Positions 500-62,657 of a stretch of 64,000 nucleotides of DNA are shown here, one piece after another. Numbering within the stretch: position 1 is the stretch's first letter; each line of letters starts with the position of its first letter. A program made the translations under genes and the position numbers. The notes under the pieces were generated by a model. It searched no databases, had not been told where the DNA came from, and saw only the letters and a list, made by a program, of their open reading frames with translations. Source of the DNA: Longitalea luteola (GTDB lineage: Bacteria; Bacteroidota; Bacteroidia; Chitinophagales; Chitinophagaceae); assembly GCF_017356035.1 (NCBI RefSeq), contig NZ_JAFIQX010000014.1, positions 1 to 64,000 of the forward strand. Reading direction: 5' to 3'.

Positions 500-763
500 G
501 TGTTTTTTTCGAGAAAAATGGTCCCCCGCGGAAATACGGCTCTACACCAGGGCGACTTTGGCTTTAATCCGCCGGCCCCCGGCCCTGCTGCCAGCGCCCT
601 CCCATCGGCTTCCCTGCCTCATGGCAGACTCATGGCATATTCTTCCCACCCTTGTCCACGTTTCTCCCTGATAATATGTCGGCTAAGTGTTGTCAATGAT
701 GAAACGTGAAACGGCAAACGCAAAAACGGCAAACGTGAAACGGCGACTCTTTCAAGGAATCAA
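500..763. other. Gene-less stretch with one heptamer tract
   Basis: I see no convincing gene here. The 73-codon frame at 488-709 has no recognisable features. The only structure is the heptamer tract at 701-743. Confidence 0.5.
701..743. repeat. Heptamer tract, GAAACGG/CAAACGT words
   Basis: Six consecutive units with core AAACG; five are 7 bp and one is 8 bp. It lies just downstream of the truncated minus-strand fragment ending at 764. Confidence 0.75.
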
Positions 764-1431
764 CTATTGGATCAATGTTACATCAAAAGTAATAGCACCT
801 ACCGGCTGGGGCACCAGCGTAGTATTTACAAAGCCGATCGTGATCGTATTGGAACTGCTCATATAGCTGTAGGCTATGGCAAGTCCCGAAGGCAATGCAC
901 TACGTGGATTGATCATTACCGAGTTTTGTGTGGCTGCTCCGCTTATGGTTGCAGTTACCTGCCGTGTTGTTCCGGCGGCAATACCGGAATTGTCATTTAC
1001 ACTAAAGCTGGTCTTGATCATGTTGTTCAACACGGTTCCTGCATTGCCTAATTTATAGGTTCCGGTCACATCGAGGGTTGCTGCAGGGGCAGTAGTACCC
1101 ACCCCTACCCTGCCTGCACTGATAATTCGCATTCGTTCATTGCCGGCGGCAATACCGCCGGTGAAAAAGATCAGGCTTTTTGCGGGAGCCGTGTTGCCAA
1201 CAATGAACTCCTGGCCGGCGCTGAACAGGTAACCATTATTAGGACCGCTCAAAATATTATTGGCGCTGTTGTAGCCGCCTCCGTTGATGCCGAGGTTCAC
1301 ATAGTTGGTGTTCTCGGTGCCATTATCGGCTGTAGCTACAATATCGGTACTGGCCTGTCCCTGTCCGGACTCGTTCTGGATATTGAACTGCAGGTAGCCG
1401 TGAGCATGAACCGTACATGTTGAAAAACTAC
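764..1431 (-). pseudogene. Truncated tail-fibre-like/surface protein, C-terminal fragment
   Basis: The open frame runs from a stop near 1431 to TAG at 766-764, but has no ATG in its first 40 codons. The only early start is a GTG at 1300. The translation contains FNIQNESGQGQAS, DIVATADNG and YVNLGING, then VGVGTTAPAATLDVTGT, a segment common in phage tail-fibre and large Bacteroidota surface proteins just before the C-terminal region. It ends in TFDVTLIQ. I read it as the last 220 or so residues of a longer protein whose 5' part was lost at a junction near 1400-1430. It could still be expressed from GTG, but that would remove part of the conserved segment. Family assignment comes from recalled motif similarity only. 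Confidence 0.55.
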
Positions 1432-2187
1432 ACCTCTAACGGTAAAGGACGGGTTGCTGTTTGTTCAACAGGGCGTGATATATATTATATGAGCTGCCAT
1501 GCGTTTTTATGCAGGTCAACTTTAATCACCAAAATGATAAGATCGGCTAAGAACCGATGCGCCGCAACAGATTATTTTGCCGTTCACATGCTTTCAATAC
1601 CGATATGCGACGGATTAGTATAGAAGTCTTTACACAACTACATGTGATCAACAACGTTACCTGACGATCAACCCGCCTTGAATGTTCATATATTTTCCCT
1701 GACAATCGCATTGTTTATTGAAAAAAATGTCTTACTTATGTAGTACATAATTGTATTGACCAATCAAACCTTATCATGAAAAACTGTACCCTTATCACAC
1801 TGCCATATGAGAACTCTGCCTGGCCAGGCAGAGCTATTGCCCCGCTGCATACTGCCAACAGCAATCCTGCTTATGCAATTGCTTATCCCCCTTTCACCAG
1901 TAACATACCGGATATTGCAGCAGTGCCTTTCCCAATGGCATGTGTAACGCCATAGCAAGGTTTGTATACTGACCCCGTTGTATGGGGGCGCCCTACTATG
2001 GCCACAGGCCATTCCGTACCTATTCCCTACACTAGTATAGCCCGTCGTTTTTACTGTAGTCAGCAAACCCTGTTTGCTGAACCGTACACCTATTTGCCTG
2101 CCGGCACCCGGTTGTTGCAGGTAACGGGCACCGGCATGTCATAAAACACCTTATTCTTTTAACCATTAAAATTAAACATTAAACACC
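1432..2187. other. Long intergenic stretch with one interrupted frame
   Basis: No RNA gene or confident CDS is visible. The only notable item is the interrupted frame at 1776-2144, entered separately. The 50 bases before 2188 are A/T-rich, typical of a Bacteroidota translation start without Shine-Dalgarno. Confidence 0.5.
1776..2144 (+). pseudogene. Possible broken short gene with an internal TAG
   Basis: From ATG 1776 a frame runs 59 codons to TAG (1953-1955), then continues in the same frame for 62 more codons to TAA at 2144. The product (starting MKNCTLITLPYENSAW) is rich in Pro, Tyr and small residues and matches no family I know. The minus strand is also open over much of the interval (2066-1764), so this may be chance. 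If real, it is a small gene broken by a nonsense codon. Confidence 0.2.
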
Positions 2188-5070: not shown

Positions 5071-5075
5071 ACAAA

Positions 5076-5211
5076 GACCTGCAAGGTACACCTCAGTGGC
5101 CTGCAAATTCAGACGGCAAGGGTGTACCTGACAGGTCGCATAAAAACGAACGGCCTGTCAGGTGGGCTCAACTCACTCGCATTTCAAGATGCTGCCGTCC
5201 ACCTTACAGGT
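5076..5211. repeat. Two imperfect inverted repeats in the spacer
   Basis: GACCTGCAAGGTACACC (5076-5092) pairs with GGTGTACCTGACAGGTC (5121-5137), 15 of 17 positions. A second pair, CCTGTCAGGTGGG (5154-5166) and CCACCTTACAGG (5199-5210), is related in sequence. ACCTGTCAGGT-type palindromes recur between genes in many Bacteroidota, so this looks like a REP-like element rather than a terminator; there is no T-run. Confidence 0.5.
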
Positions 5212-5235
5212 CTTACCAAGATTAAACATTATACT

Positions 5236-8208
5236 ATGAATAAAACACGACGATTTCTTATAGGAACACTGGTGGCTTTGTTGTTCTCGCCGGTAGCGGC
5301 GCAACAGCGGCCGGGTGCTACCAACATTACGTTTGTTGTAAAAGATCAAAATACGGGGTTTGCCATACCCGGGGCAGTGGTGCAGGTTACAGCGCCCAAT
5401 GGCAGCAGCAGTACATTAACAGCAGCAGCCAATGGTAAACTGGTATTCACGGCAGTAAACGGCAAGTACGACTTTTCTATAACGGCCAATGGTTACAAGT
5501 CATTAGCCACTTATTTTTCATCAGGTGAAGTGACCAATATTGAAGCCCGCGTCAACCTGGAGCCAGCTGACAATAATGCGCGCCTGGAGCAACCATCGCT
5601 TCGCGCCGAGCTAAACCAGACCATTATTAGCGGCTATGTAAGAGATGAAACGGATAACAGTCCGCTCGCCGGCGTGCAGGTAAACAGCGGCAGCGCTTCA
5701 GCTGTGACAAACAGCAAGGGTTATTTCTCCTTAGCGGTTCCGACTTCGCCAGCATCGATTACGCCAAACGCTGCACCTGCAAAAACAGCGATCAGTTTTA
5801 CCAGGAACGGTTATGCGCCTTACACGGCGCAGCGTTATGCCATCCCGGACTCCTATACAATGAAAGTGGCGCTATCACCGCTTAGCTCCGCCCGGGTGCA
5901 ACAAAGAATGGCCACCCAACAGCCCATCGGTGAAACGGATAAACAGGTGCATGGCCTGTTCGACAGAACCGCTGCTGAAGAGCAACAGCGGTATGCGCCT
6001 TCCTCAACACCACAGGCCCGGGTAGAAGCTGTGCTGGCCGCTGCGGTGCCGGGCAGTATTCGCGTGGGCATCAGCTGTAACTGTACTTCCTGCAGTTCGG
6101 TTGAAGTAATGACGCTGGAAGAATATGCGCAGTCAGGCCTGGATGATGAATGGATCGCCAGCTGGGGCGCCGCCTCCTTACAAGCCGGTGCCGTTGCCTA
6201 CCGTACTTATGGCGCCTGGTATGCGTTACATCCTGTAGCCAGCAGCTATGATATTGCTGCTACCACCTGTAACCAGGTTTGGCAGTCGGACAGGTATACC
6301 AGCTGTATCAATGCCGCCAAAGCAACAGCCGGCATTGTGCTGGTAAAGAATGGCGCAATTTTCAGATCGGAATATTCAGCAGAGAACAACAACTCCGGCT
6401 GTGGCAATGGATATAGTGGTACCGGTTCAACCTGGCCCTGCATTTCGGATGCCCGCTGTGCCGGTTATGCCAAGAATGGTCATGGCCGTGGCATGTGTCA
6501 ATGGGGTTCAAGCCGGTGGGCCAGTGACAAAACCTATACCTGGATCCTAAACCATTACTACAATCCAGGCAGTGTGTTTATTCAATTGCCACCGAGCCCG
6601 GCCGTTACCGTTGCCTCCTTTGCAGTGAAAGATCAAAGCACCGGACTGGCCATTGCCAGTGCTGCGGTGGCCATCACCAAACCCGATGGCACTACTGCCA
6701 GCGCAACTACCAATGCCAGTGGTCAACTGGTATATGGACTCGACAGTGGCCGCTACAGTTTTACGTTCTCGAAAACAGGGTATAAAAGCCTGGCTACCTT
6801 TTTCATCGGCGGCCCCAATGATAGTGTGTATGCCGATATCAACCTGGATGTGGCCAGTACGGCAAGAATAGCTACTAACACGGCTCCTCTACTTTCTGCC
6901 AATAACAACCAGATGGTGCTTACCGGTTATGTGCGCGATGCAGATATGAACAGCGCCCTGGCAGGCGTACAGGTGCAGGCAGGCAATTATAGTGCTATCA
7001 CCAATGCCAACGGCTTCTTTACGATAACCCTTCCGGCCGGTGCTGTTGCCCCCGGCAGTGTACCACCTACTATCTCTATTCAATCAACCAAAGCCGGCTA
7101 TCTTAACAACAGCATTCAGCATTTGTATGTGATCCCTGATACCTATGAAATGCAGATCGCATTAACGTCAACGGCTTCGCCCCGCGCCCCGCGACTGCGT
7201 AACCTGGGCGACCAGCTTATTCGCCGCCATGGCTTGTTCGACAAAACGCCGGCAGAACAACTGGAGTTCATTAGTGATCATTCGCCAACGGCTGTTACTG
7301 CCCGCCAGCAATCAACGGTTAGCACTGCAGCCCTGCTGGCTGCCGTACCCACGGTGATCCGCGTAGCTACCAGCTGCGCCTGTGTGAGCTGCGCCAATCC
7401 AAGGGTACAGGTCATGAGCCTGGAATCGTATGTACAAACCGGTGTGGATGATGAATGGGTCAGCAGTTGGAATGCCGCTGCCCTGCAAGCTGGCACCGTG
7501 GCTTACCGCTCCCGCGGCGCCTGGTTTGTGCAACATCCGGTCGCCAGCAATTATGATCTCTCAGCCGCTGCCTGTCACCAGACCTGGCAAACCGATCGGG
7601 CAGCAAGCGTAAAAAATGCAGCCATCGCTACAGCAGGTATTGTACTTATTAAAAACGGCGCAATTTATAAAGCAGAATACTGCGCTGAAACCAACAACTC
7701 CGGCTGTGGAGATGGTTACAGTGGCACCGGCACCGATTATCCCTGTATCGCCGACAGCCGGTGCGTGGGCAGAACCAAAAATGGCCATGGCCGCGGCATG
7801 TGCCAGTGGGGCTCCAGCTTCTGGGGCACCGATCAAACCTATAGCTGGATCCTGAACCATTATTATAATCCGGACAGTGCTACGATTCAAACCACTACAA
7901 CAACTATAGCTGCCAGCAACAGTGATAGCAAAATAACCGACGATGGCAGTCTGAAAATAGCACCCAACCCAACCAGCGGCAGCACTATCACCATAGAATA
8001 TACGCTGGCAGATGTATCACAACCGGCCAGCATTGTAGTCACCGACAACTTCGGCAAATCTGCCCGGCAGCGCAATGTGGTATTGCAGCCGGGATTGAAC
8101 CGGCTTAGCATTGGTACCAGTGGGTTGAAGGCGGGGATCTATAATGTCACGGTTCGACTGGCAGCTTCCGGTAAGAGTACAAGTAAGAAGTTGTTAGTGG
8201 TGAAATAG
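5236..8208 (+). CDS. T9SS-secreted protein with two SpoIID modules
   Basis: The start is ATG 5236, where a signal peptide begins (MNKTRRFLIGTLVALLF, ending at AAQQ); the frame also opens upstream at 5122, but that part reads through a REP-like palindrome. 990 residues. Module A (about 30-455) and module B (about 456-870) each hold two carboxypeptidase-regulatory-like beta domains followed by a SpoIID domain. Candidate catalytic Glu residues are E305 (GLDDEW) and E740 (GVDDEW). Both modules keep the Cys-rich NNSGCG segment and the GHGRGMCQWGSS block. A T9SS sorting domain ends the protein. Unlike its neighbour it has no amidase, so it would depend on one to supply denuded glycan (inference from SpoIID biochemistry). 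Modules A and B are clearly diverged, whereas module B is about 99% identical at DNA level to the upstream gene, which points to recent duplication or gene conversion. Confidence 0.87.
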   Translation: MNKTRRFLIGTLVALLFSPVAAQQRPGATNITFVVKDQNTGFAIPGAVVQVTAPNGSSSTLTAAANGKLVFTAVNGKYDFSITANGYKSLATYFSSGEVTNIEARVNLEPADNNARLEQPSLRAELNQTIISGYVRDETDNSPLAGVQVNSGSASAVTNSKGYFSLAVPTSPASITPNAAPAKTAISFTRNGYAPYTAQRYAIPDSYTMKVALSPLSSARVQQRMATQQPIGETDKQVHGLFDRTAAEEQQRYAPSSTPQARVEAVLAAAVPGSIRVGISCNCTSCSSVEVMTLEEYAQSGLDDEWIASWGAASLQAGAVAYRTYGAWYALHPVASSYDIAATTCNQVWQSDRYTSCINAAKATAGIVLVKNGAIFRSEYSAENNNSGCGNGYSGTGSTWPCISDARCAGYAKNGHGRGMCQWGSSRWASDKTYTWILNHYYNPGSVFIQLPPSPAVTVASFAVKDQSTGLAIASAAVAITKPDGTTASATTNASGQLVYGLDSGRYSFTFSKTGYKSLATFFIGGPNDSVYADINLDVASTARIATNTAPLLSANNNQMVLTGYVRDADMNSALAGVQVQAGNYSAITNANGFFTITLPAGAVAPGSVPPTISIQSTKAGYLNNSIQHLYVIPDTYEMQIALTSTASPRAPRLRNLGDQLIRRHGLFDKTPAEQLEFISDHSPTAVTARQQSTVSTAALLAAVPTVIRVATSCACVSCANPRVQVMSLESYVQTGVDDEWVSSWNAAALQAGTVAYRSRGAWFVQHPVASNYDLSAAACHQTWQTDRAASVKNAAIATAGIVLIKNGAIYKAEYCAETNNSGCGDGYSGTGTDYPCIADSRCVGRTKNGHGRGMCQWGSSFWGTDQTYSWILNHYYNPDSATIQTTTTTIAASNSDSKITDDGSLKIAPNPTSGSTITIEYTLADVSQPASIVVTDNFGKSARQRNVVLQPGLNRLSIGTSGLKAGIYNVTVRLAASGKSTSKKLLVVK
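6601..8175 (+). repeat. 1.57 kb long direct repeat, copy 2
   Basis: Partner of 3463-5037. The left boundary falls in the linker before module B (VTVASFAVKD) and the right boundary a few codons before the stop. This placement is what recombination between tandem paralogues would give. Confidence 0.95.
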
Positions 8209-8265
8209 CTAGTGGCTAGTAGCAAGTGGCGAGTGAGTATTCCCTACTCGCTACTCACCACTCGC
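8209..8265. repeat. Heptamer tract CTAGTGG/CGAGTGA with inverted arm
   Basis: Starts on the base after the TAG stop at 8208. Four 7-bp units in one sense, an 8-bp centre, then three 7-bp units in inverse sense (TACTCGC/CACTCGC). The arms pair and may end transcription. Confidence 0.8.
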
Positions 8266-8313
8266 CACCCGGTTATAATTAAAGAAATCATTTCTTAAAA
8301 TAAAACAATCTAT

Positions 8314-8868: not shown

Positions 8869-8891
8869 ATGGTCAATAGCCAATGGTCAAT
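8864..8891. repeat. Heptamer tract GGTCAAT/AGCCAAT
   Basis: Four 7-bp units. The TGA stop of the M23 gene (8866-8868) lies inside the first unit. Confidence 0.7.
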
Positions 8892-8979
8892 AATTCACTG
8901 ACCAGATACCACCTGCCGGTTTGCAAACATCAAACTTAGCAATCAAAATCAGAACTGAGAAAATACGGGCTCCGCTATT

Positions 8980-9113: not shown

Positions 9114-9141
9114 TTTCATTGTAAACATTAAAACCTGACAA

Positions 9142-10386: not shown

Positions 10387-10417
10387 AAGTTATAAGTTAT
10401 AAGTTCTAAGTTTTAAG
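10383..10417. repeat. Heptamer tract TTATAAG/TTCTAAG
   Basis: Five 7-bp units; the TAA stop of the sialidase (10384-10386) is inside the first. It runs directly into the terminator stem at 10415. Confidence 0.75.
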
Positions 10418-12420: not shown

Positions 12421-12672
12421 TCATATAAACACTTTACTTTCAATGCGAATACAAATCAGGCACGGGACATTCATTCCCACAAATAGAAAAACGTTCCCAT
12501 ACATTAGTATCTTATACGCAGGCGATGTTTGTGCATAAATATTTGTTTCTTAGACAATTAAATAGTTCTACCTAGTACGATATAAATAAATTCCGAAGCT
12601 TGTAGACGAATGAAAAGCTATGTGCTGATTTGCTGATGTGCTGATGTGCTGATGTGCTAATGAAAATGCCGA
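12421..12672. other. Intergenic, no gene
   Basis: A/T-rich spacer upstream of the kinase. The only structure is the octamer tract at 12623-12662, just past the end of the GNAT gene. Confidence 0.6.
12623..12662. repeat. Octamer tract TGCTGATG/TGCTAATG
   Basis: Five perfect 8-bp units, ending in TGCTAATGAAAATG. Same family as 25049-25088, 58072-58103 and 61379-61410, which end in a similar AAT-GAAAT tail. Confidence 0.85.
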
Positions 12673-13242: not shown

Positions 13243-13602
13243 ACACTTGAATTTTCAGATTTCGAGATTTTGAGATTTTGAGATTTAATCGTTTTGAATT
13301 TACGGATAATTGGAGATCTGGAAGCAGGAAAATTAAAAAATCAGGAAATCCCGAAATCAGCAATCAGAAATCAAAAATTGAACGTGGTTCATTTCAGTAA
13401 ACAACTCGTCAAGAACCATTAACACATTTACGGGTCTTCCATATAAATTCGTACTTGATGAGAAGCATCAATTTTCTCCTGCTCTGATAACTACATGGTA
13501 AGCCTGGTTCGGTACCCTATTCGATCGCATAAATGACTCGGGCAACCGAAAACACCCGCCGTAGCAAATAATACTGGTCAGCACAACCAAAACATCCATA
13601 AC
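13243..13602. other. Intergenic region between GNAT gene and susC
   Basis: 360 bp with no gene. It contains an octamer tract (13256-13287) and inverse-sense copies to about 13380. I do not find a good TTTG-N19-TAnnTTTG promoter for susC, nor an ECF sigma/anti-sigma pair. Confidence 0.55.
13256..13380. repeat. GAGATTTT octamer family with inverted arm
   Basis: Four 8-bp units CAGATTTC/GAGATTTT (13256-13287), then, about 55 bp on, inverse-sense words such as GAAATCCCGAAATCAG. Same family as 26675-26783, 43862-44035 and 54495-54755. Confidence 0.75.
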
Positions 13603-18119: not shown

Positions 18120-18123
18120 TTCA

Positions 18124-18211
18124 GTTACAGGTTACAGGGTACAAGTTACAGGGCTTTAATGGTCGCTCGGGTTGTAAAAAGTTGAGCCCTGCAACCTGGA
18201 ACCTGCAACCG
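18124..18211. repeat. Heptamer tract GTTACAG/GGTACAA with inverted arm
   Basis: Four 7-bp units start 4 nt after the susD stop. After about 40 bp come three units in inverse sense (GCAACCT/GGAACCT). GTTACAGGGCT and AGCCCTGCAACC can pair, giving a possible terminator stem. Confidence 0.75.
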
Positions 18212-18281
18212 TGGGCTATCAATGAACTCCCTTAAATCAACTCTTAAGCTTTATTATCTCTGTTAACTTTTCAACTTTTCT

Positions 18282-21104: not shown

Positions 21105-21133
21105 TCCCCCCATCCCGCAATACACAAGCACTA

Positions 21134-21154
21134 ATTGGCAATGGACAATTGACA
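21134..21154. repeat. Heptamer tract ATTGGCA/ATTGACA
   Basis: Three 7-bp units, in inverse sense to the TTGTCTA/TTGCCTA tract at 21254-21317. Confidence 0.6.
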
Positions 21155-21213
21155 AAGTTATATTACAAGCAGACTTACTTCTTTTAGGCTTCGCTAATTT
21201 CCAGTAAAAAACA

Positions 21214-21248
21214 AAGGCAAAAAGCATAGTACTGTTGCTTTTTGCCTT
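21214..21248 (-). terminator. Terminator of the large T9SS gene
   Basis: AAGGCAAAAAGCA (21214-21226) pairs perfectly with TGCTTTTTGCCTT (21236-21248). Read on the minus strand it is followed within a few bases by TTTTTT, so it serves the leftward gene ending at 21357. Confidence 0.75.
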
Positions 21249-21253
21249 GCCTT

Positions 21254-21317
21254 TTGTCTATTGTTTATTGCCTAAGGCCTCTTGCGTTTTTGCCCTTTGT
21301 CTATTGCCTATTGTCAA
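21254..21317. repeat. Heptamer tracts TTGTCTA/TTGCCTA
   Basis: Two groups of three 7-bp units (21254-21274 and 21297-21317). Confidence 0.7.
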
Positions 21318-21356
21318 TTCCCCTTTGGTTCCGGCTCCCATTTAGGGGGTAGGGAG

Positions 21357-24818: not shown

Positions 24819-25048
24819 CTAATTATAATAAATGATTGATCGCTCCGGGTGTCGGGGCATTGTAAGAATGAAATGTAATCTGCGCATGATCACTTACAGG
24901 ATCATTGGATTGTTCCGGTGGAATTTATAACCGGTATGCGGCGGCAAATGTAGCAGGTAACGAAAGGCGATCTTCCATCGTCAACATGGAATGCCAAAAC
25001 GGGGATATGAATTGTTGCTAGCAGCGGCTGGAATGCAATGTAATAATC

Positions 25049-25088
25049 TGCTAATACGCTAATGTGCTAATATGCTAATGTGCTAATG
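25049..25088. repeat. Octamer tract TGCTAATA/TGCTAATG
   Basis: Five 8-bp units followed by AAATACACC, the same tail as near 61411. Confidence 0.85.
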
Positions 25089-25107
25089 AAATACACCAAT
25101 ACGCGGA

Positions 25108-25163
25108 GTCAATCGGCAATCGTCAGTCGTCAATCGTCAATCGTTAATCGACAATCGTCAATC
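25108..25163. repeat. Heptamer tract GTCAATC/GGCAATC
   Basis: Eight uninterrupted 7-bp units; only positions 2, 3 and 5 vary. Confidence 0.9.
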
Positions 25164-25166
25164 GAT

Positions 25167-25229
25167 TTAAAACTTAAAACTTTGAACTTATAATTTTGAA
25201 CTTTGAACTTAAAACTTTGAACTTATAAC
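25167..25229. repeat. Heptamer tract TTTGAAC/TTAAAAC
   Basis: Nine uninterrupted 7-bp units. The rfbD stop codon (25225-25223 on the minus strand) lies inside the last unit. Same family as 58253-58294. Confidence 0.9.
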
Positions 25230-26095
25230 AGGTTAATACATTTTTGTAACGATTCTTTCCAATCCGGAATGGTACAGCGAAATGTTTGTTGCAATTTGGT
25301 AGTATCTAATAAGGAGAATGCAGGCCTTTTGGCCGGCGTGGGATATTGTTCGGTAGGAATAGGATTCACAACACAGGGGCTGTCCGTCAACTCTTTTATG
25401 GCAACAGCAAAATCATACCAACTTATGCGGCCCTGGTTGCTGTAGTGATAAATGCCAGACACCCAGTCGGCAGCTGACAATTGACTCCTCGTAATGATAT
25501 GCATAATACAACCGGCCAGGTCAGCAGCATAGGTAGGTGCACCCACCTGGTCGCTTACTACATTGATGGCAGGACGGTCCTGCATCAGCTTCATCATCGT
25601 CTTTACAAAATTCTTTCCAAAGGAGGAATATACCCAGGCGGTCCTTATGATGATGGCCGAAGGATCAGTGGCTACACACAGCTGTTCGCCTTTTAATTTG
25701 GAAGCGCCATACAGGTTCACCGGATCTGTGTGCGCCTCTTCTTTATAGGGCACGGGTGACTGCCCATTGAAAACATAGTCGGTTGAAATATGAATGAAAC
25801 GGGTCTTGTACGTTTTACAGGCTGCTGCCAGAATGCGTGTACCTTCTGCATTTACACTGAAAGCAGCCTCCTGTTCTGATTCAGCTTTATCAACTGCGGT
25901 ATAAGCGGCGCAGTTGATACAATACGCGGGCTTATGTTCAGCAAACAGTTTTTGTACGGCAGCTTCATCATTTACCGGCATATTTTGATGCGTAGTAAAT
26001 ATGAATGTAAAATCAGGAAATGATGCGGCCAATACCCGTAACTCCTGCCCTAGCTGACCGTTGGCGCCGGTGACTACAATAACTGGTTGCGACAT
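25223..26095 (-). CDS. rfbD: dTDP-4-dehydrorhamnose reductase
   Basis: 290 residues, the usual length. Reduces dTDP-4-keto-L-rhamnose to dTDP-L-rhamnose, the last step of the pathway. NADPH-binding GANGQLG at 10-16, STDYVFNG at 104-111, and the YxxxK catalytic pair Y129/K133 in YGASKLKGE. It is the last gene of the leftward nucleotide-sugar operon; rfbC lies 8 bp upstream. The transcript ends in a 7-bp repeat tract instead of an obvious hairpin. Confidence 0.95.
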   Translation of the reverse strand: MSQPVIVVTGANGQLGQELRVLAASFPDFTFIFTTHQNMPVNDEAAVQKLFAEHKPAYCINCAAYTAVDKAESEQEAAFSVNAEGTRILAAACKTYKTRFIHISTDYVFNGQSPVPYKEEAHTDPVNLYGASKLKGEQLCVATDPSAIIIRTAWVYSSFGKNFVKTMMKLMQDRPAINVVSDQVGAPTYAADLAGCIMHIITRSQLSAADWVSGIYHYSNQGRISWYDFAVAIKELTDSPCVVNPIPTEQYPTPAKRPAFSLLDTTKLQQTFRCTIPDWKESLQKCINLL

Positions 26096-26664: not shown

Positions 26665-26674
26665 TACTTACTTA

Positions 26675-26783
26675 TTTTGAGATTTTGAGATTGTTGGATT
26701 TTGCGATTTGGCGAGTTTGAGATTTACCGGCCTATTCGAAACAAGGAAATCCCGAAATCTCAAAATCCCGAAATCAGAAATTG
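26675..26783. repeat. GAGATTTT octamer family inside the rfb operon
   Basis: Six 8-bp units of TTTTGAGA type (26675-26722), then inverse-sense words (AAATCCCGAAATCTCAAAATC region, 26745-26783). It occupies nearly the whole rfbB-rfbC gap. Confidence 0.8.
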
Positions 26784-26789
26784 CATTAT

Positions 26790-33842: not shown

Positions 33843-33935
33843 AATAAGCGGGTACTTTTTTATGGTTAGAGTTAATTGATTGATGGTTAGAGCTAATTGA
33901 TAAAGTTAACAATTATTGTACCTATTTCCGTTAAC

Positions 33936-34505: not shown

Positions 34506-34593
34506 AAAGTTAACAAGTTTATAAAGTTAATAAAGTTGAGAAAGCTGAAAAAGAGGAATGCCGAAGTATAATCGTGAGCTCGAAGAATAAAGA

Positions 34594-34635
34594 ACCATAA
34601 ACCACAAACCATAAACCATAAACCACAAACCATAA
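34594..34635. repeat. Heptamer tract ACCATAA/ACCACAA
   Basis: Six uninterrupted 7-bp units; only position 5 alternates (T or C). It is the inverse sense of the GTTTGTG family at 42053-42087. A looser GTT-based repeat of 8-9 bp lies at 34501-34550. Confidence 0.9.
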
Positions 34636-34679
34636 ACTCTTTCCTAGTAAACCAAAACAACACTTAAAACAAAACCGTC

Positions 34680-35333: not shown

Positions 35334-35408
35334 GTTACCGGTTACCGGTTTGCCGGTTTCCGGGGCTTCAGCGCGGCGAGGCCCGGCACCCGGCGCCTGG
35401 TACCCGGT
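35334..35408. repeat. Heptamer tract GTTACCG with inverted arm
   Basis: Four units of GTTACCG/GTTTCCG (35334-35362, one of 8 bp), then four inverse-sense units GCCCGGC/ACCCGGT (35381-35408). It starts 3 nt after the ccmB stop and can fold into a GC-rich stem. Confidence 0.75.
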
Positions 35409-42052: not shown

Positions 42053-42111
42053 GTTTGTGGTTGGTGGTTTGTGGTTTGTGGTTCAATAACTCAATAACTT
42101 AATAACTTAAG
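42053..42111. repeat. Heptamer tract GTTTGTG then octamers AACTTAAT
   Basis: Five 7-bp units (GTTTGTG/GTTGGTG, last GTTCAAT) begin on the base after the amn stop, then three 8-bp units AACTCAAT/AACTTAAT. It shows a direct switch between a 7-bp and an 8-bp family. Confidence 0.85.
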
Positions 42112-42119
42112 ACTTTGAA

Positions 42120-43861: not shown

Positions 43862-44035
43862 CTGATTTTTGATTTCTGATTTCGGGATTTTGAGATTTCG
43901 AGATTTTCCTGTCTGCAACATGCACTAAAGACCGGGCACCTCTCCGACCTCAGACTTCCGATCTCTGACTTCTGATTTCTGATTTCGAGATTTTGAGATT
44001 TCGAGATTTTGAGATTTCGAGATTTCCCATGTGCA
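43862..44035. repeat. GAGATTTT octamer tracts upstream of the M14 gene
   Basis: 8-bp units at 43862-43909 and again at 43986-44033 (CGAGATTT/TGAGATTT). Between them lie heptamers CCGACCT/CTGACTT (43944-43985), so the two families abut in phase. Confidence 0.85.
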
Positions 44036-44045
44036 ACATTCCTCT

Positions 44046-44150
44046 CCAACTTCCGACCTCGGACTTCCGACCTCTGACTTACGACTTCTGACCTCGGATT
44101 TCCGACCTCCGACTTCCGACCTCGGACCTCCGACCTCGGACTTCCGACCT
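44046..44150. repeat. Heptamer array CCGACCT/CGGACTT, fifteen units
   Basis: Fifteen uninterrupted 7-bp units; GAC at positions 3-5 (once GAT, once AAC) is nearly constant while positions 1-2 and 6 vary. It is the longest perfect-phase array in the window, and its inverse word GTCAGAA recurs in the sucB linker. Confidence 0.92.
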
Positions 44151-44171
44151 CGACCTCCGGAAATAAAAAAA

Positions 44172-47676: not shown

Positions 47677-47738
47677 ACAGAGGGAAGAAGATCAGGCAGC
47701 ATAAGATGAGTTATTAATTTCAAATGTGGTGAGCTATT

Positions 47739-47759
47739 GACCATTCACCATTCACCATT
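47739..47759. repeat. Short heptamer tract CACCATT
   Basis: Three 7-bp units (GACCATT/CACCATT) in the sucA-sucB gap. Confidence 0.6.
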
Positions 47760-47783
47760 GACGATAAATAAGAAACGTTTTTT

Positions 47784-53228: not shown

Positions 53229-53263
53229 GTAACGTTGATTCACATCTATTTATTGCCTGAAAA

Positions 53264-54367: not shown

Positions 54368-54388
54368 ATCCTAAAAAAATTAAGCTTG

Positions 54389-54396
54389 CAAATATA
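54389..54396 (-). promoter_or_regulatory. mnmA promoter -7 element
   Basis: TATATTTG on the minus strand followed by CAAGC, 22 bp before the ATG. The -33 box is weak. Confidence 0.55.
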
Positions 54397-54805
54397 CGAT
54401 TAATGGCCGAAAGGGGGAATTACCCACCTGGCGACGCTGACAAGCTGAATAACACAAAAAGGGGGTAATGGTTCAAGGAGGCGGAAGGCTGAAGGTGATT
54501 TCTGATTTCGAGATTTCGAGATTTTGAGATTTTGAGATTTTGAGATTTTGAGATTTTATTTCTCGGCAACAGTTTAATTATTTGGGTATATCCCGAGTGC
54601 TCAAAAGCCAAACCAAAAAGGATTTCTGATTTCGAGATTTCGAGATTTTGAGATTTACTTTCGGCAGCAGTTTAATTATTATCGAAAACTCCGAAATCTC
54701 AAAATCCTTAAATCAGAAATTTCGAAATCAGAAATCTCGAAATCCCTAAATCCCCGAATTCTTGTCTTATCTTCCATAACTTAACAACAAAACGTTACAG
54801 TCTTT
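54397..54805. other. Divergent intergenic region mnmA-M14
   Basis: About 400 bp without a gene. Bases 54495-54755 are GAGATTTT-family repeats, leaving little room for a promoter of the 54806 gene; none stands out. Confidence 0.55.
54495..54755. repeat. GAGATTTT octamer family, large inverted array
   Basis: Forward blocks at about 54497-54559 and 54621-54657, then a long inverse block at 54689-54755 (words such as CCGAAATCTCAAAATCC). Forward and inverse blocks can pair over tens of bases. A 25-30 bp segment around CGGCAACAGTTTAATTATT is also repeated between the forward blocks. Confidence 0.88.
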
Positions 54806-57394: not shown

Positions 57395-57548
57395 TTGATG
57401 TGTTAATTTGATAATGTGATAATTAAATACAGCGCTAGAACTCAAAGGCACATACAGTACCTGCTACACATTAACGAATAGTCATGGTTATTCACACTGT
57501 ATTCCATTATCGAATTCTCGAATTATCACATTATTACATTAGCATATT
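57393..57548. repeat. Octamer tract TGATAATG with inverted arm
   Basis: Four 8-bp units (57393-57424; TGTTAATT/TGATAATG) start inside the stop codon of the M14 gene. Five inverse-sense units (57509-57548; ATCACATT/ATTACATT) lie 85 bp on, so a stem-loop is possible. Confidence 0.8.
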
Positions 57549-57604
57549 ATTCTTTAATTTGCCGGACAAAACAATATTTAAGTACGACGCTAAATTTATT
57601 AAGT

Positions 57605-58054: not shown

Positions 58055-58071
58055 CCAAGATGCCAATACAC

Positions 58072-58103
58072 TGATTAGCTGATGTGCTGATTAGCTAATG
58101 TGC
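58072..58103. repeat. Octamer tract TGATTAGC/TGATGTGC
   Basis: Four 8-bp units ending TAACGAAATGCA; same family and tail as 12623, 25049 and 61379. Confidence 0.85.
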
Positions 58104-58146
58104 TAACGAAATGCAGTTCCGATAATAATGAATATAATGAAAAGAG

Positions 58147-58181
58147 GCCGGCAACATCGTAATGAGGTTGCCGGCTTTTTT
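58147..58181 (+). terminator. ssb terminator
   Basis: GCCGGCAAC (58147-58155) pairs perfectly with GTTGCCGGC (58167-58175), then TTTTTTC. Confidence 0.92.
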
Positions 58182-58211
58182 CTTGTAACGTTGAACCACG
58201 TTCGCATCTGT

Positions 58212-58246
58212 GTAACCGGTAACTGGCAACTGTGAACAGTGAACTA
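58212..58246. repeat. Heptamer tract GTAACCG/GCAACTG
   Basis: Five 7-bp units, same family as 62609-62657. Confidence 0.8.
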
Positions 58247-58247
58247 C

Positions 58248-59588
58248 TTACTTAGTACTTTGAACTTTGAACTGTGAACTTTGAACTGTGAACTTCTTCT
58301 CATACTCCTTCACCAATCTTTCGATCTCCGCCTTACTCACCGGCTTCCGCTGATCATCGATATCAATTACATGCAAATAGCCCTTGTTGCCGGCCGTTGC
58401 ACTAAAAGCACTCACGAGGTTAAACTGTTCGCTCACCAGCAGTCGGCCATTCGATGTATTCCATAATTCTTTTGCACACAAACAGCCCATGGTAGGCGTT
58501 AACGGATACCAGGGTTTGTTTTTGAAATATTCCGGATCGATTGTAGTACCATGCGCGATGATGGAGTTGCGGCCAATTTTTCCCGCATAAAATGCTTCCG
58601 TAACCGAGCTTACATTCCGCATCGATGGCGGCAGCAATTGCAGGTAAGACCACAACGCATCATAGTTGGGAGTGTACACAACACTATCGCCGGCATGAAA
58701 ATAGGTTGTCCATTTTCTTTCATAGGGCATTACCAGTTGCAGGTTGGGCGTAGGGCCAATCAGTTTATTGTAAGTGACCGCAGTGCCCTGTATACTGTAC
58801 ACACCTTGCGGCGTGTTGCCATCGGGAATGAAATAGGGCATGCCGGAAGCGGAGCGGGCCAGTTGCTCGAACATCATCAGCCGGCCATCAGCATGCCGCA
58901 TAAAACGACCATCTGCATTTTGCACAATGGCCAGTCCGGCATAATCGCGGTTATGGCGTTGAAACGAGTAAATGACTTTTTTCTTCACTACCTGCTGGTG
59001 GCCGAACAATTCGATGAGGTCTTTGATGGCAGGCGCTGTAAAACGAGTGTAGGTGCTTATGTATTTATCCAATTCAACCAGTACCGGAATGTTGGCATAA
59101 CCGGGAAACTGCTCCCTGATCCTTCTGCGGATATTGGCGGTATTAACGCCTGATGAATCGTACCGGAGGCTGTATGCTGCAGCCATGGCAAACAGGAAAG
59201 GATTCGTTTCCTTCGCCAGCAGTAATTGAATGCTTTGAATATATTGATCGGGGTACATGCCATACACGGTTTCGAGCATGGCGCGTTTGGTATCATAGAG
59301 CAGCGCATCGTAATGAACAAACAGCTGCGTAATGCCCATCTGGGTGGTGTCATTATCGAGCATGAACTGAACAATGGCCCGGCAGGCAGCTTCATATTTA
59401 TATTCGGTATTACTGTCGAGCGGCGCTAAAAACGCTTTGCCTATTACATTCTCGCGCAGGTCTTTTAACAATAACTGCCGCTTTTTATATAGGACAAAAT
59501 CACTATAAATATCTTCCCGGCGCGGCTGCGCTTCTATATGATATTGTAAAAAAACAGCTAAACAAAGAAGTACGGCCTTAACCTTCAT
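58248..59588 (-). CDS. Secreted L,D-transpeptidase-like (YkuD-like) protein
   Basis: 446 residues. Signal peptide 1-20 (YHIEAQP). The N-terminal half is helical and unrecognised. The C-terminal half has the L,D-transpeptidase pattern GNTPQGVYSIQG (usually TPxGxf.i), H346 in IIAHGTTI, and TMGCLCAK with C369, matching the H...(S/T)xGC signature; the gap between His and Cys is longer than usual. Such enzymes make 3-3 cross-links or attach proteins in peptidoglycan. I call it moderately confident since the SHGCIR core is altered to TMGCLC. The last 15 or so residues (KFTVQSSQFKVQSTK) are encoded by a heptamer tract that has replaced or extended the natural end. Confidence 0.6.
   Translation of the reverse strand: MKVKAVLLCLAVFLQYHIEAQPRREDIYSDFVLYKKRQLLLKDLRENVIGKAFLAPLDSNTEYKYEAACRAIVQFMLDNDTTQMGITQLFVHYDALLYDTKRAMLETVYGMYPDQYIQSIQLLLAKETNPFLFAMAAAYSLRYDSSGVNTANIRRRIREQFPGYANIPVLVELDKYISTYTRFTAPAIKDLIELFGHQQVVKKKVIYSFQRHNRDYAGLAIVQNADGRFMRHADGRLMMFEQLARSASGMPYFIPDGNTPQGVYSIQGTAVTYNKLIGPTPNLQLVMPYERKWTTYFHAGDSVVYTPNYDALWSYLQLLPPSMRNVSSVTEAFYAGKIGRNSIIAHGTTIDPEYFKNKPWYPLTPTMGCLCAKELWNTSNGRLLVSEQFNLVSAFSATAGNKGYLHVIDIDDQRKPVSKAEIERLVKEYEKKFTVQSSQFKVQSTK
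58253..58294. repeat. Heptamer tract TTGAACT/GTGAACT inside the 3' end of a gene
   Basis: Six 7-bp units (first TAGTACT). They are translated on the minus strand as the final residues of the L,D-transpeptidase-like protein. Same family as 25167-25229. Confidence 0.88.
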
Positions 59589-59787
59589 AATTGTAAATAT
59601 ACTTTACCGGCTGAAAAAAAATCTTTAATTATCTGTAACTTCAGGCACCTTTTCGCAGCGCATCGATATTACTGGCGGGTACTCAGCAAGAAACGTGCAG
59701 TTATCAAATTTTTAATGTAAGCCCCAAAATTTGTTTGTGGTTTGGTTTTTGTAAAAACAGCCAAACGCTGAACGCCCGCCCTGCAAT

Positions 59788-59803
59788 CCCGGCTAAAGCC
59801 GGG
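59788..59803. repeat. Short palindrome CCCGGCT-AA-AGCCGGG
   Basis: Seven-bp perfect stem with a 2-nt loop. The core resembles the mnmA terminator stem (CCCGACTAAAGCCGGG) but has no T-run. Confidence 0.5.
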
Positions 59804-59845
59804 CAAAGCCCTGTAATTTTTAACTGGCAACCGGTACTGCTCAGC

Positions 59846-59878
59846 AGGTGTGCCATACTTTGAAAGTGTGGCACACCT
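59846..59878. repeat. REP-like palindrome of 33 bp
   Basis: AGGTGTGCCA (59846-59855) pairs with TGGCACACCT (59869-59878), and the inner ACTT/AAGT extends the stem to about 15 bp with one wobble. It lies between divergent genes, so it is not a terminator of either. Similar AGGTGTGCCACACTT palindromes recur in Bacteroidota genomes (recalled). Confidence 0.6.
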
Positions 59879-59956
59879 TTCAGCTGAAACCCTGAAAACC
59901 GGTAAACCGAACCTGTAAGCTGAAATTAATAACGTATTAACTTGTCAACCTTAACC

Positions 59957-61372
59957 ATGAATATGTCTAAAGATTACGCATCAACCCGCCGCAAATTTTT
60001 AAAGCAGTTAACAGCCTCCGCTGCAATGCTGTCTGCAGGTTCCTTTGCTTCTGTAGCCAAAGCCAACGAAGAAACTTTGGAAGAACGCATCATTCGTTAT
60101 GAGAAACCTATTGGCCCCAATGATGCCATTCGCATAGGCATTATAGGCACCGGCATCATGGGACACCAGGATCTGCAAACAGCCCTTAAAGTGCCAGGCG
60201 TTGAACTGGCCGGCGCCTGCGATCTGTACACGGGCCGGCTCGAACGGATGAAAGAATTATATGGCAGTTCATTATTCACTACCCAGGATTACCGGGAATT
60301 ACTCAATAAAAAAGACATCGATGCCGTGATCATTGCTACCAGCGATCACTGGCATGCACGTATTGCTACCGAAGCCTTTCGCAAGAACAAACACGTGTAT
60401 TGCGAAAAACCTATGGTGCATAAGATCTGGGAAGGATTACCATTGATCGGCGCCCAGCGGTTGAGCAAAAAAGTGATGCAGGTGGGCAGCCAAAGGGTAA
60501 GCAGCATTGCTTATATTAAAGCAAAGGAATTATACAAAGCCGGTGAGATCGGCGCGCTCAACTGTGTAGAAGCCACCTACGACCGGCAAAGCGCCATCGG
60601 CGCCTGGGAATACACCATGCCAACGGATGCCAGTCCGCAAACGGTAGACTGGCGGCGCTATTTGAGCGGCATGCCGCAGGTAGCGTTCGATCCCAAAAAA
60701 TTCTTCTGGTGGCGCAACTACAAAGCATTCGGCACCGGTATGGCAGGCGACCTGTTCGTGCATTTGCTGTCGGGCGTTCATATGATCACCGATTCCAATG
60801 GCCCTACCCGCATTGTATCGAGCGGACAGTTATCTTACTGGAAAGATGGCCGCGACGTACCGGATGTAATGACGGCCATTATGGATTATCCGGCCACCAA
60901 GGCCCATCCGGCTTTCCAGCTTATGTTGCGGGTGAATTTTATCAGCGGTGGCGGTAATAAAAGTTTGATCAGGCTGTATGGTACAGAAGGCATGATCGAA
61001 CTGGAGGGCAATGGCTTTACAGTAACGCACAGCCTGTTACCAAAAGCGCCGGGTATTGGCGGTTATGATTCGCTGAATACGTATCCCATGGCGATGCAGG
61101 AAGAACTGAAGAAACAATACAACGAGCGCTGGACAAAGGACGACCATAAACGACCTGAAAAGGCGCCGGTAAAATATAAAGTGCATGATGGTTATAGTGA
61201 TCACCTCGATCATTTCACGAATTTCTTCGATGCCATCCGCAATGGCACTATGGCCAATGAGGGACCTGAATTCGCCTTCCGGGCGGCCGCACCCTGCCTG
61301 GCTGCCAATGACAGCTATTACCAGAAAAGGGTCATTCACTGGGATCCGGTGAATATGAAGCTGAAAGCATAA
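59957..61372 (+). CDS. Tat-exported Gfo/Idh/MocA-family oxidoreductase
   Basis: 471 residues from ATG 59957; ATG 59963 or TTG 59942 are possible. Twin-arginine signal STRRKFLKQLTASAAML, ending near SVAKA, so it is exported folded with its NAD(P) cofactor. The Rossmann motif is IGIIGTGIMGHQDL, followed by DAVIIATSDHWHARIATEAF and YCEKPMVHKIWEG, the usual EKP dyad. The C-terminal alpha/beta domain is complete. Members oxidise or reduce sugars, inositols and glycosidic bonds; Tat-exported ones in Bacteroidota are usually tied to glycan breakdown. Substrate unknown. Confidence 0.9.
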   Translation: MNMSKDYASTRRKFLKQLTASAAMLSAGSFASVAKANEETLEERIIRYEKPIGPNDAIRIGIIGTGIMGHQDLQTALKVPGVELAGACDLYTGRLERMKELYGSSLFTTQDYRELLNKKDIDAVIIATSDHWHARIATEAFRKNKHVYCEKPMVHKIWEGLPLIGAQRLSKKVMQVGSQRVSSIAYIKAKELYKAGEIGALNCVEATYDRQSAIGAWEYTMPTDASPQTVDWRRYLSGMPQVAFDPKKFFWWRNYKAFGTGMAGDLFVHLLSGVHMITDSNGPTRIVSSGQLSYWKDGRDVPDVMTAIMDYPATKAHPAFQLMLRVNFISGGGNKSLIRLYGTEGMIELEGNGFTVTHSLLPKAPGIGGYDSLNTYPMAMQEELKKQYNERWTKDDHKRPEKAPVKYKVHDGYSDHLDHFTNFFDAIRNGTMANEGPEFAFRAAAPCLAANDSYYQKRVIHWDPVNMKLKA

Positions 61373-61378
61373 TTAAAT

Positions 61379-61410
61379 TAGCTAATGAGCTAATGTGCTG
61401 ATTAGCTAAT
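61379..61410. repeat. Octamer tract TAGCTAAT/GTGCTGAT
   Basis: Four 8-bp units, 6 nt after the stop of the Gfo/Idh/MocA gene, ending GGAAATACAC as at 25089. Confidence 0.85.
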
Positions 61411-61432
61411 GGAAATACACTTTCAATAACAA

Positions 61433-61472
61433 AACCCCTGCCCCAATGGGATGTTATGGCAGGGGTTTTTAT
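61433..61472 (+). terminator. Terminator of the Gfo/Idh/MocA gene
   Basis: AACCCCTGCC (61433-61442) pairs with GGCAGGGGTT (61458-61467), then TTTATTT. Confidence 0.88.
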
Positions 61473-61532
61473 TTGGGCTGCAGTAAACTGAAAACTACAA
61501 CCGGAAACGGTGAACTTTTGTTTCTTTGCACC

Positions 61533-62612
61533 ATGTCAGAAATAATATACTCGTACCAACAGTTATTCGATTTCACGAACCAGGTATTTCAGCAGATGGG
61601 CTGCCCGGCAGAACAGGCTGGGCTGGCCACCGAAGTGCTGCTGAGCGCCGACCTGCGGGGCATTGATTCCCATGGCGTTGCCCGCCTCAGCGGTTATGTT
61701 CGCCTGTGGGAAGCCAAACGGGTGAATGCCCAACCGGTTATCAGAATTATTCATGAGACCCCATCAACTGCAGTAGTCGATGGCGATAGCGGACTGGGCC
61801 TTGTTGTGGCTCCCTTCGCCATGCAGGTAGCCATAGAAAAAGCGAAAAAAGCAGGCACCGGCTGGGTAAGTGTGCAAAACAGTAATCATTTTGGCATAGC
61901 CGGCTATCACGCTATGATGGCGCTGGAATATGAGATGATCGGGATGGCCATGACCAATGCCAGTCCATTGGTAGCGCCCACCTTTTCAACGGAAAGGCTG
62001 CTTGGCACCAACCCCATTTGCGTAAGTATACCGGCCGGCGAAGAACCCGCATTTGTTGCTGACCTCGCAACTACTACAGCGGCAAATGGCAAACTCGAGA
62101 TCTTACAACGAAAGAACCTGGAAGCGCCGCTGGGCTGGATCCAGGATAAAGAAGGTCACCCAAGCACCAATGCACATGAGCTGAAGACCGGCGGCGCGCT
62201 GCTGCCCCTGGGTGGCGACCGCGAGCATGGCAGCCACAAAGGTTATGCGCTGGGCGCAGTGGTTGATATTTTCTCAGCCGTATTGAGCGGCGCCAACTAT
62301 GGCCCCTGGGTTCCCCCGTTTCCAGCCTATGTGCCTATGCCAACCGGTATGCCCGGCAAAGGCATTGGCCATTTCTTTGGCGCTATGCGGGTAGACGCCT
62401 TCCGCCCCGCCGATGAATTCAAAGAACATATGGATAACTGGATCAGGCGTTTCCGCAGCGCCAAACCGGTGAACGGCGAAGCAAAAGTGCTTATTCCCGG
62501 CGATCCCGAGCGCGAGATGGAAGCGGTAAGAAGAAAGGAAGGCATTCCATTACTGGATGCCGTAGCAACTGATCTTAAAGCTCTGGGAGAACGGTTTGGT
62601 ATTAAGTTGTAA
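61533..62612 (+). CDS. Ldh-family (malate/L-lactate/ureidoglycolate) NAD(P) dehydrogenase
   Basis: 359 residues from ATG 61533; the frame is open upstream through the terminator but the family starts here (MSEIIYSYQQLFDF). Landmarks are SADLRGIDSHGVARLSGY, VVDGDSGLG, VQNSNHFGIAGYHAM with the catalytic His, ATTTAANGKLE and HKGYALGAVVDIFS. This family reduces 2-oxo acids such as oxaloacetate, or acts on ureidoglycolate and related acids. A TTTCTTTG just before the ATG is close to the -7 consensus, so the mRNA could be nearly leaderless. The stop lies inside a heptamer tract. Confidence 0.9.
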   Translation: MSEIIYSYQQLFDFTNQVFQQMGCPAEQAGLATEVLLSADLRGIDSHGVARLSGYVRLWEAKRVNAQPVIRIIHETPSTAVVDGDSGLGLVVAPFAMQVAIEKAKKAGTGWVSVQNSNHFGIAGYHAMMALEYEMIGMAMTNASPLVAPTFSTERLLGTNPICVSIPAGEEPAFVADLATTTAANGKLEILQRKNLEAPLGWIQDKEGHPSTNAHELKTGGALLPLGGDREHGSHKGYALGAVVDIFSAVLSGANYGPWVPPFPAYVPMPTGMPGKGIGHFFGAMRVDAFRPADEFKEHMDNWIRRFRSAKPVNGEAKVLIPGDPEREMEAVRRKEGIPLLDAVATDLKALGERFGIKL

Positions 62613-62657
62613 CCTGTAACACTGAACTGGCAACCGGAAACCAGCAACTGGTAACTG
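62609..62657. repeat. Heptamer tract GTAACCT/GCAACTG, seven units
   Basis: Seven uninterrupted 7-bp units; the first contains the TAA stop (62610-62612). AAC at positions 3-5 is nearly constant (one AAA variant aside). Confidence 0.9.

Follow-up and report, generated by a model that had tools for sequence, protein, structure and literature searches.

Arrays of 7- and 8-bp tandem repeats in the intergenic DNA of Longitalea luteola and some of its relatives, about half of them with an inverted partner

A few groups of bacteria are known to carry heptamer arrays, for which no cause has been accepted. The intergenic heptamers of Xanthomonas (GGGAATC) and Nostoc (GGGGAYT) have a unit of 7 bp, lie near stop codons, are fewer between divergent genes and occur in an inverted arrangement (PMC4692102). 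The TAACTGA repeats of Beggiatoaceae, cyanobacteria, and five Bacteroidetes also form heptamer arrays with a patchy spread, and long arrays in some Bacteroidetes are missing in close kin (PMC4679880). Tandem repeats have been surveyed as well (PMC4060949). Here we describe arrays of 7- and 8-bp words in the intergenic DNA of a 64,000-nt window, which is the whole stretch analysed (positions 1 to 64,000 of contig NZ_JAFIQX010000014.1, labelled C5, in the 7.30-Mb genome of Longitalea luteola). Judged by one protein, Niastella caeni (84% identity) and Niastella sp. OAS944 (81%) come closest among named organisms, and the group is called Niastella below; G, C, and L numbers are our labels. A first-pass annotation of the window likened the arrays to the heptameric repeats of cyanobacteria and knew of no report for Chitinophagaceae. 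The likeness is borne out and extends to Xanthomonas (PMC4692102) and Beggiatoaceae (PMC4679880), and a literature search, limited and mostly without subscription journals, found no report tying such arrays to Niastella or Chitinophaga. Since Xanthomonas and Nostoc have published heptamer arrays that are sited in a similar way, the kind is already known and the present arrays are a variant of it.

The variant differs from each described system. The Xanthomonas and Nostoc study treats one G-rich word with a focus on quadruplexes (PMC4692102), whereas the arrays here have many words, octamers as well as heptamers, degenerate units, hairpin arms in about half of the cases, and fast gain or loss. 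The TAACTGA repeats, unlike ours, lie in the main genome mostly just before start codons, with only one indirect repeat (PMC4679880); an octamer found here, TAACTGAA, is one base longer than TAACTGA. The P6b stem of the Nostoc trnL intron is likewise built of 7-nt repeats (TDNGATT or NNTGAGT), gains units on one or both sides, and has had one word replaced by the other in several lineages, but it is a single locus inside a group I intron (PMC4476775). Repetitive extragenic palindromic (REP) sequences, bacterial interspersed mosaic elements (BIME), and REP doublets forming hairpins (REPIN) resemble the present elements in being dispersed high-copy hairpins behind genes. REP, BIME, and REPIN are rare between divergent genes. 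REPs and REPINs are defined by a GTAG or GTGG foot and a short stem of 7-20 nt (PMC6006769). The arms here are longer and made of tandem 7- or 8-mers, and no REP-associated tyrosine transposase (RAYT) follows them in a search of the Y1_Tnp family. Perfect stems have been proposed to arise and be maintained by template switching, in which one arm is copied onto the other; that proposal came from RNA gene histories (PMC8794818), and here the process is suggested by covariation in a single species. In the literature examined, we found no system that combines octamers, a multitude of words, arms of hairpins, siting at stop codons, and rapid turnover. Two periods, word sets that differ between genera, fast turnover, and one species with hundreds of hairpins and covarying stems make the cause testable; in other words, it can be asked whether slippage, arm copying, or a mobile enzyme makes the arrays.

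The pattern is real, strong, and replicated, and its mechanism has been traced only in part. In the window, intergenic identity was 0.313 at lag 7 and 0.309 at lag 8, and in coding DNA it was 0.247 and 0.242. The autocorrelation that the first-pass annotation had proposed for all intergenic DNA of the genome was run on a 464-kb sample, consisting of the window and 400 kb from contigs C11 and C22. Lags 7 (z 24) and 8 (z 14) were strongly in excess, with harmonics at 14 and 21 and weaker ones at 16 and 28; the z values are over-dispersed because the remaining lags above 3 range from about -5.5 to +5. Coding DNA displayed no excess at lags 7 and 8 in either the window or the sample. A tract detector at a score of at least 13 found 51 intergenic tracts of period 7, 34 of period 8, one of period 9, and none of periods 4-6 and 10-11, while five dinucleotide shuffles of the same DNA gave none at period 7 or 8 and coding DNA gave 0.4 of period 7 after scaling to equal bases. 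The arrays thus have the intergenic tandem unit of exactly 7 bp that marks heptameric short tandemly repeated repetitive (STRR) sequences, though with octamers beside it. At a lower threshold (period 7 or 8, score of at least 11) there were 108 tracts in the sample, from which the whole genome would be extrapolated to hold about 1,700. The 26 intergenic ones in the window agree with the "about thirty" counted before; both ends of the span then given, 701 to 62657, are weak (Tandem Repeats Finder (TRF) score 35 at 700-742, detector score 7.8 at 62625-62657).

Duplex stability was considered as the factor setting the unit length, because 8-mer tracts had a lower G+C than 7-mer tracts (0.30 against 0.42) and a similar energy per unit (-9.57 against -9.35) in this genome. 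This idea was ruled out: the octamer families number only three, G+C was 0.36 against 0.37 in G064 (another genus; a single contig of 7.29 Mb), and AT-rich 7-mers and GC-rich 8-mers exist elsewhere.

The tracts tend to lie on the stop side of genes. Genes in all siting and gap counts come from our own crude gene caller, and gaps lacking a called gene on either side were left out of the siting counts. Divergent gaps had 0.48 tracts per kb, compared with 1.76 for codirectional gaps and 2.23 for convergent ones. Of 75 codirectional tracts, 15 started no more than 10 nt from the stop, where 4.0 were expected; of 22 convergent tracts, 12 lay within 10 nt of a stop, where 3.9 were expected. Some arrays start at the base directly after the stop. 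Over 14 such flush arrays, agreement with the unit is 0.79, 0.57, and 0.50 for the three stop bases, yet it is also about 0.5 for several of the coding bases that precede them, so the link to the stop codon itself is weak. The stop-side siting and rarity between divergent genes described in PMC4692102 are found here, in G064, and in Chitinophaga solisilvae. This siting and the pairing of tracts as hairpins had been missed in the first-pass annotation, whose interpretation as a whole is supported in part. Providing stops in all three frames was rejected as a function (stop triplets 0.082 sense, 0.072 antisense, 0.075 shuffled). Flush arrays stopped all frames within 30 nt in 29% of 55 cases and other gaps in 8% of 542, which is taken as a by-product of a period not divisible by 3.

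Siting at stops would also suit an origin by growth of intrinsic transcription terminators. At the site behind rmlD, terminator-like hairpins are seen by eye in five other Chitinophaga loci (all comparisons by eye are unscored), and in L051 such a stem sits inside 7-mer arms. However, a T run (at least 6 T in 12 nt) follows only 4 of 19 sense-strand hairpins, one hairpin lies inside the rml gene cluster, Rfam at its gathering score finds only tRNA in the window, and convergent gaps with tracts fold worse than those without. An origin from terminators is very unlikely.

For about half of the tracts, the gap also contains an array in reverse complement, which makes these tracts hairpin arms. The test covered 90 of the 108 tracts, those scoring below 12 or with little flank being left out, and a partner was a reverse-complement match of at least 12 in the rest of the gap. 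Partners were found for 44 of 90 tracts, against 6 in a complement-only control and 7 when other gaps were searched. By gap type, partners occurred for 31 of 67 codirectional, 6 of 15 convergent, and 7 of 8 divergent tracts. Five window hairpins fold at z -1.4 to -6.2, and two array stretches of the window without a partner fold no better than chance. Among the 161 of 297 gaps of suitable length (80-350 nt), those with tracts fold somewhat better (mean z -2.14, n=47) than those without (-1.30, n=114). The same features recur with other words in 140 kb of G064 (32 tracts of period 7, 12 of period 8, 2 of period 9), in which 16 of 50 tracts start within 10 nt of a stop (expected 2.8) and 23 of 55 have an inverted partner, against 4 in the control.

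The hairpins are clearest in C. solisilvae, whose arrays are the 7-bp outer arms of dispersed hairpins in hundreds of copies. The three-unit word TTACGAATTACGAATTGCGAA has at least 852 matches there with one mismatch allowed (control 0). The first 30 loci, all on one contig, represent 23 distinct places, and all 23 have a facing arm within 260 nt with two mismatches allowed. Thirteen of these hairpins and two of the three in L069 (15 copies in all) form the scored alignment A2, from which irregular ones were excluded; seven more were aligned (A3) and not scored. In A2, 98.3% of cells pair and 20 of 50 pairs have changed on both sides, with 70 such changed cells against 18.5 in shuffles and at most 11 in slid controls. 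Coordinated double changes of this kind were not seen at the one Niastella site compared. Over 321 kb picked around listed matches there are 30 hairpins (15 convergent, 14 codirectional, 1 divergent), 28 of them 103-142 nt long, and in 12 of the 15 convergent cases no more than 16 nt separate the hairpin from either stop. In stretches chosen for their known copies, starts lie within 10 nt of a stop in 41 of 75 cases (7.8 expected). Of 195 sampled family genomes, 7 match a longer pattern of this word family, and in L298 octamers are nested, by eye, in the heptamer arms of one hairpin. Dispersed, extragenic, high-copy hairpins as in REP and REPIN are thus found in C. solisilvae, and in Niastella by word family only. 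The first-pass annotation had held that a few mobile sequences of fixed length would speak against its view; C. solisilvae roughly has them, but in Niastella lengths and inner parts vary.

The finding of one period with differing words across tracts holds, but the words are not unrelated, contrary to what had been stated. Word families recur: 209 pairs of heptamer tract words are at distance 0 or 1 (56 with shuffled words), as are 189 octamer pairs (10 with shuffled words). Single linkage places 39 octamer tracts in three families (CATTAGCA, ATTTYGAG, and TAACTGAA) and 58 of 69 heptamer tracts in two networks, although linkage chains unlike words together. The fixed core of 3-4 bases described earlier was not recovered; in the 30 of 108 arrays that could be scored (at least 5 units and at least 3 extra alleles), variable columns averaged 3.77 against 3.93 expected (combined p 0.98). 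The same word occurs at many places of the genome, as in heptameric STRR sequences. Counting overlaps, two-unit matches to GATTTYGA number 142 in this genome (reversed control 0). The sister genome G001 has 73, and each of the eight remaining genomes of the genus has between 0 and 11. Two-unit matches to CCATTSA, also with overlaps, number 402 (reversed control 18), and at least 63 of 147 family genomes, counting this one, contain such dimers; the genera with high counts are scattered. Among the matches listed, G001 has 269 CCATTSA dimers with a reversed control that is also raised (60). As three units CCATTSA occurs in at least 10 of 395 phylum genomes; in one genus among the matches listed the control is equal or higher in both genomes that have hits to either the word or the control (G164 and G169). 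These counts, together with the hairpin family of C. solisilvae, do not support the earlier exclusion of copying of one element, since words are copied. A plasmid search with one 30-base array gave only two weak Pseudomonas matches. Some members of the CATTAGCA family have a module between the arms, which is CCCGCAAAGCGGGACAGGTTGTG at three of the four places C22:115372, 132722, 158083, and C11:193203 (sample coordinates). Among 283 sampled intergenic gaps, other dispersed repeats include 10-mers from a palindrome of the CCTGCCTGCCGGCAGGCAGG type, in up to 8 gaps, and AAGAACCAAA in 9.

Are the arrays plain simple-sequence repeats? The slippage step would be the DNA stretch held by the polymerase, which would give 7-mers (here also 8-mers) wherever selection tolerates them, with hairpins and word sharing as by-products. 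Polymerase slippage has been published as an idea (Mrazek 2007, as cited in PMC4679880 and PMC4692102), and period 7 prevails in 19 Sphingobacterium loci (17 tracts of period 7, 1 of period 8, 6 of period 9), many of the heptamers coming from one locus, L098. Neighbouring units are also locally alike. In 63 arrays of the two sister genomes, units close to each other resemble one another more than after shuffling of their order (z 7.8 at a distance of one, 6.4 at two, fading by four), and therefore local slippage by one or two units is how we read the unit order; exactly identical units are enriched at distance two, not one. However, slippage alone puts no same words at hundreds of places, and it makes neither the inverted partners nor covarying stems. 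As a full account it is doubtful. One spacing with many words would also fit a protein that binds RNA or DNA with a subunit on every 7-8 nt, and binding of CspB at one per heptamer is discussed in PMC4679880. Yet periods are mixed within some tracts, and a sequence-specific protein is unlikely because the words differ widely in sequence and composition, which leaves such sites a most improbable explanation.

Arrays turn over fast between close relatives. G001 was compared through 297 reciprocal best genes (median protein identity 92.5%) and 274 orthologous gaps, of which 30 hold tracts here only, 15 in G001 only, 19 in both, and 210 in neither. The same word is kept in 13 of the 64 occupied gaps, and 6 have different words. 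Since about 4 of the latter are expected by chance (a hand estimate), no claim of hot sites is made. Where only this genome has a tract, its gap exceeds the G001 counterpart by a median of 61 nt, and gaps occupied only in G001 are shorter here by 19. Several of the G001 gap alignments listed show, by eye, clean insertions directly behind the stop, although absence can also mean loss, and some gaps scored empty in G001 hold weaker array versions among the alignments listed. Turnover of arrays may thus account for some of the differences between intergenic regions in these genera, a point to be considered when genomes are annotated, terminators predicted, or strains compared. Periods 7 and 8 also prevail in G001 (25 and 12 tracts; 2 of period 9, 2 of period 11, 1 of period 12). 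G003 has no tract in 80 kb and one in 36 kb, and few tracts were found in the further family genomes sampled (G134, G037, and G030). L098 (Sphingobacterium allocomposti) contains a several-kb stretch rich in the heptamers GATAGCA and TACTCAC, and L108:3003-3610, also Sphingobacterium, has nonamer arrays AGGGTTTAG and AACTTTCTC, a third period.

How do the arrays arise and spread? We give about even credence to a model of dispersed, REP-like hairpin elements that insert immediately after stop codons and change by slippage, arm copying, and spread; the tracts would be the arms of such elements, in some cases a single arm. Each arm would be a tandem array of one 7- or 8-bp word. Arrays would change by slippage of whole units, as the unit-order statistics suggest, and the period would therefore be kept while the word is free to drift. 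Both arms would keep one word, in opposite orientations. Most likely, template switching or hairpin repair at replication would rewrite one arm from the other, as the covariation in C. solisilvae suggests. Elements and words would spread to other gaps, consistent with their copy numbers, and would be kept where they are least harmful, behind genes. There the hairpin may influence the ends of transcripts, a role proposed for REPs.

Several results weigh against this model. At the threshold used, 46 of 90 tracts have no partner, and among convergent gaps the ones with tracts fold less well (mean z -1.58, n=10) than the ones lacking them (-3.61, n=14). In 34 Niastella arm pairs, some sharing an arm, identity is 0.808 in register and 0.800 when shifted by one unit, and none of the 34 beats shuffled unit order at 5%; Niastella arms share the word and not the unit order, which implies that arms were not recently copied there or have been scrambled since. 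Covariation at one Niastella site is unfavourable (term +1.11, six sequences). In C. solisilvae, 3 of the 23 hairpins are irregular (L237, L253, and L258), and nearest copies show 39 one-sided against 38 two-sided changes, with mutual neighbours counted twice. The model also leaves the choice of periods 7 and 8 unexplained, and in the search for a mobilising enzyme, made in the Y1_Tnp family, Y1_Tnp does not follow the arrays.

A further reading, which we regard as rather unlikely, treats the arrays as a class of mobile DNA that is inherited as a word of 7-8 bp and a period instead of as a fixed sequence. Such DNA would seed behind stops, copy into its own inverted arm, drift as a word family, and move through replication without a dedicated transposase.

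Alternatively, RAYT- or IS200-type hairpins would be moved in trans by a single-copy Y1 transposase. Niastella has a single-copy gene of this family (G000:C39:257240-257668, L289:2741-3169) encoding an IS200-like protein of 142 aa. Two orthologs score 54.8 and 58.9 bits for IS200 TnpA (cut-off 55) and 23.1 and 22.2 bits for REP_Tyr_transpos (cut-off 80), so it resembles IS200 TnpA and not RAYT; no cognate RAYT was found, the search being of the Y1_Tnp family only. A GTSAATG/CCATTSA-type hairpin lies in the gap upstream of the gene in 8 of 9 Niastella genomes, its second arm being interrupted in G008 (nine of the ten genus genomes were compared, G006 being left out), and it is present even in array-poor G003 and G005. 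Y1 copy number was rejected as a driver, with 1-3 matches in all ten genus genomes. That test is weak because RAYT genes are single copy, and therefore flanks were examined. Of 30 Y1 loci, 29 were tried and 20 of these had no gene call; the 230-nt Y1 flanks in the 9 readable loci of other genera hold no 7- or 8-bp arrays. Also, G012 has at least 229 CCATTSA dimers but a Y1_Tnp match of only 24.6 bits, and C. solisilvae has no Y1_Tnp match (its assembly completeness is not stated), which counts against Y1 as a general mover. Judged from one tyrosine motif, YIEKQEEHH, the Niastella enzyme looks like subclass 1.2 (YIKNQKEHH), a low-copy group listed for Cyanobacteria and Bacteroidetes, two groups with heptamer arrays (PMC6006769). 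Movement by Y1 is decidedly unlikely. In L273, L281, and L285, Y1 genes of other family members are flanked, by eye, by non-tandem palindromes resembling ordinary REPs.

Table 1. Arrays and hairpins of 7- and 8-bp words in the window
Feature	Position	Strand	Remarks
7-mer hairpin CTAGTGG.. / ..CCACTCG	8209..8271	+	behind stop at 8208; 8209-8275 folds at z -4.45
7-mer array AAGTTAT	10387..10417	+	starts at first base after a stop; no inverted partner
8-mer array ATGTGCTG, CATTAGCA family	12620..12662	+	no array in G001 ortholog
8-mer hairpin ATTTYGAG / AAATCAG, AAATCCCG	13251..13378	.	between divergent genes
7-mer hairpin GTTACAG / CCTGCAA	18124..18210	+	behind SusD-like gene, before tRNA-Gln
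8-mer hairpin AGTTATTC / TAACTGAA	20103..20250	+	z -6.22; absent in G001 and, by eye, in G007
7-mer arrays AATTGAC and TTGCCTA	21133..21319	.	TRF
8-mer array GTGCTAAT	25037..25093	.	TRF and tract detector
7-mer array GTCAATC, 8 units	25108..25164	.	13 two-unit matches in genome, reversed control 0
7-mer array TTTGAAC	25167..25229	-	reaches stop of rmlD (25223-26095, - strand)
8-mer hairpin ATTTTGAG / GAAATCCC	26674..26775	-	between rmlB and rmlC (Pfam names); 26667-26789 z -3.45
7-mer array AACCATA, unpaired	34593..34637	+	related arrays in G001 and G004
7-mer hairpin GTTACCG / CCCGGCA	35334..35407	+	z -3.59; related arrays or hairpins in several species
7-mer array GTTTGTG	42053..42083	+	starts at first base after a stop; convergent genes
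8-mer array TCAATAAC	42083..42110	.	tract detector
Cluster: 7-mer CTGATTT, 8-mer GATTTCGA, 7-mer CTCCGAC (16.7 units)	43863..44159	.	TRF and tract detector
7-mer array ATTSACC, CCATTSA family	47736..47765	+	tract detector
8-mer arrays GATTTYGA and inverted AAATCTCG	54504..54752	.	TRF and partner test
8-mer hairpin GATAATGT / ATTATCGA	57398..57550	.	partner test
8-mer array CTGATTAG, CATTAGCA family	58071..58106	.	TRF
7-mer arrays GTAACCG and ACTTTGA	58212..58295	-	GTAACCG in gap, 3 nt from stop; ACTTTGA inside 3' end of open reading frame 58248-59588
8-mer array AATTAGCT	61376..61411	+	3 nt behind a stop

Some sites of Table 1 could be followed across the genus. The hairpin between divergent genes at 13251 is also present, by eye, in G001, G002, G004, and G008 and not in G003 and G005. 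The site before tRNA-Gln has other words in N. caeni and OAS944, and at 18120-18215 there are 17 of 200 shuffles that fold as well. The octamer hairpin between rmlB and rmlC occurs in this genome, G002, G004, and G008, whereas in G003, G005, and G009 its 123 nt are replaced by 32. Of eight relatives compared at 42053-42117, five have other words and two have nothing; G008 is not comparable. Two further repeats of the window stand apart. A 129-bp tandem repeat of about 2.4-2.7 copies at 149-498 is unlike the 7- and 8-bp arrays, and a 21-bp (3 x 7) tandem duplication lies at 33862-33901 in a conserved gap that has one copy in N. caeni and OAS944.

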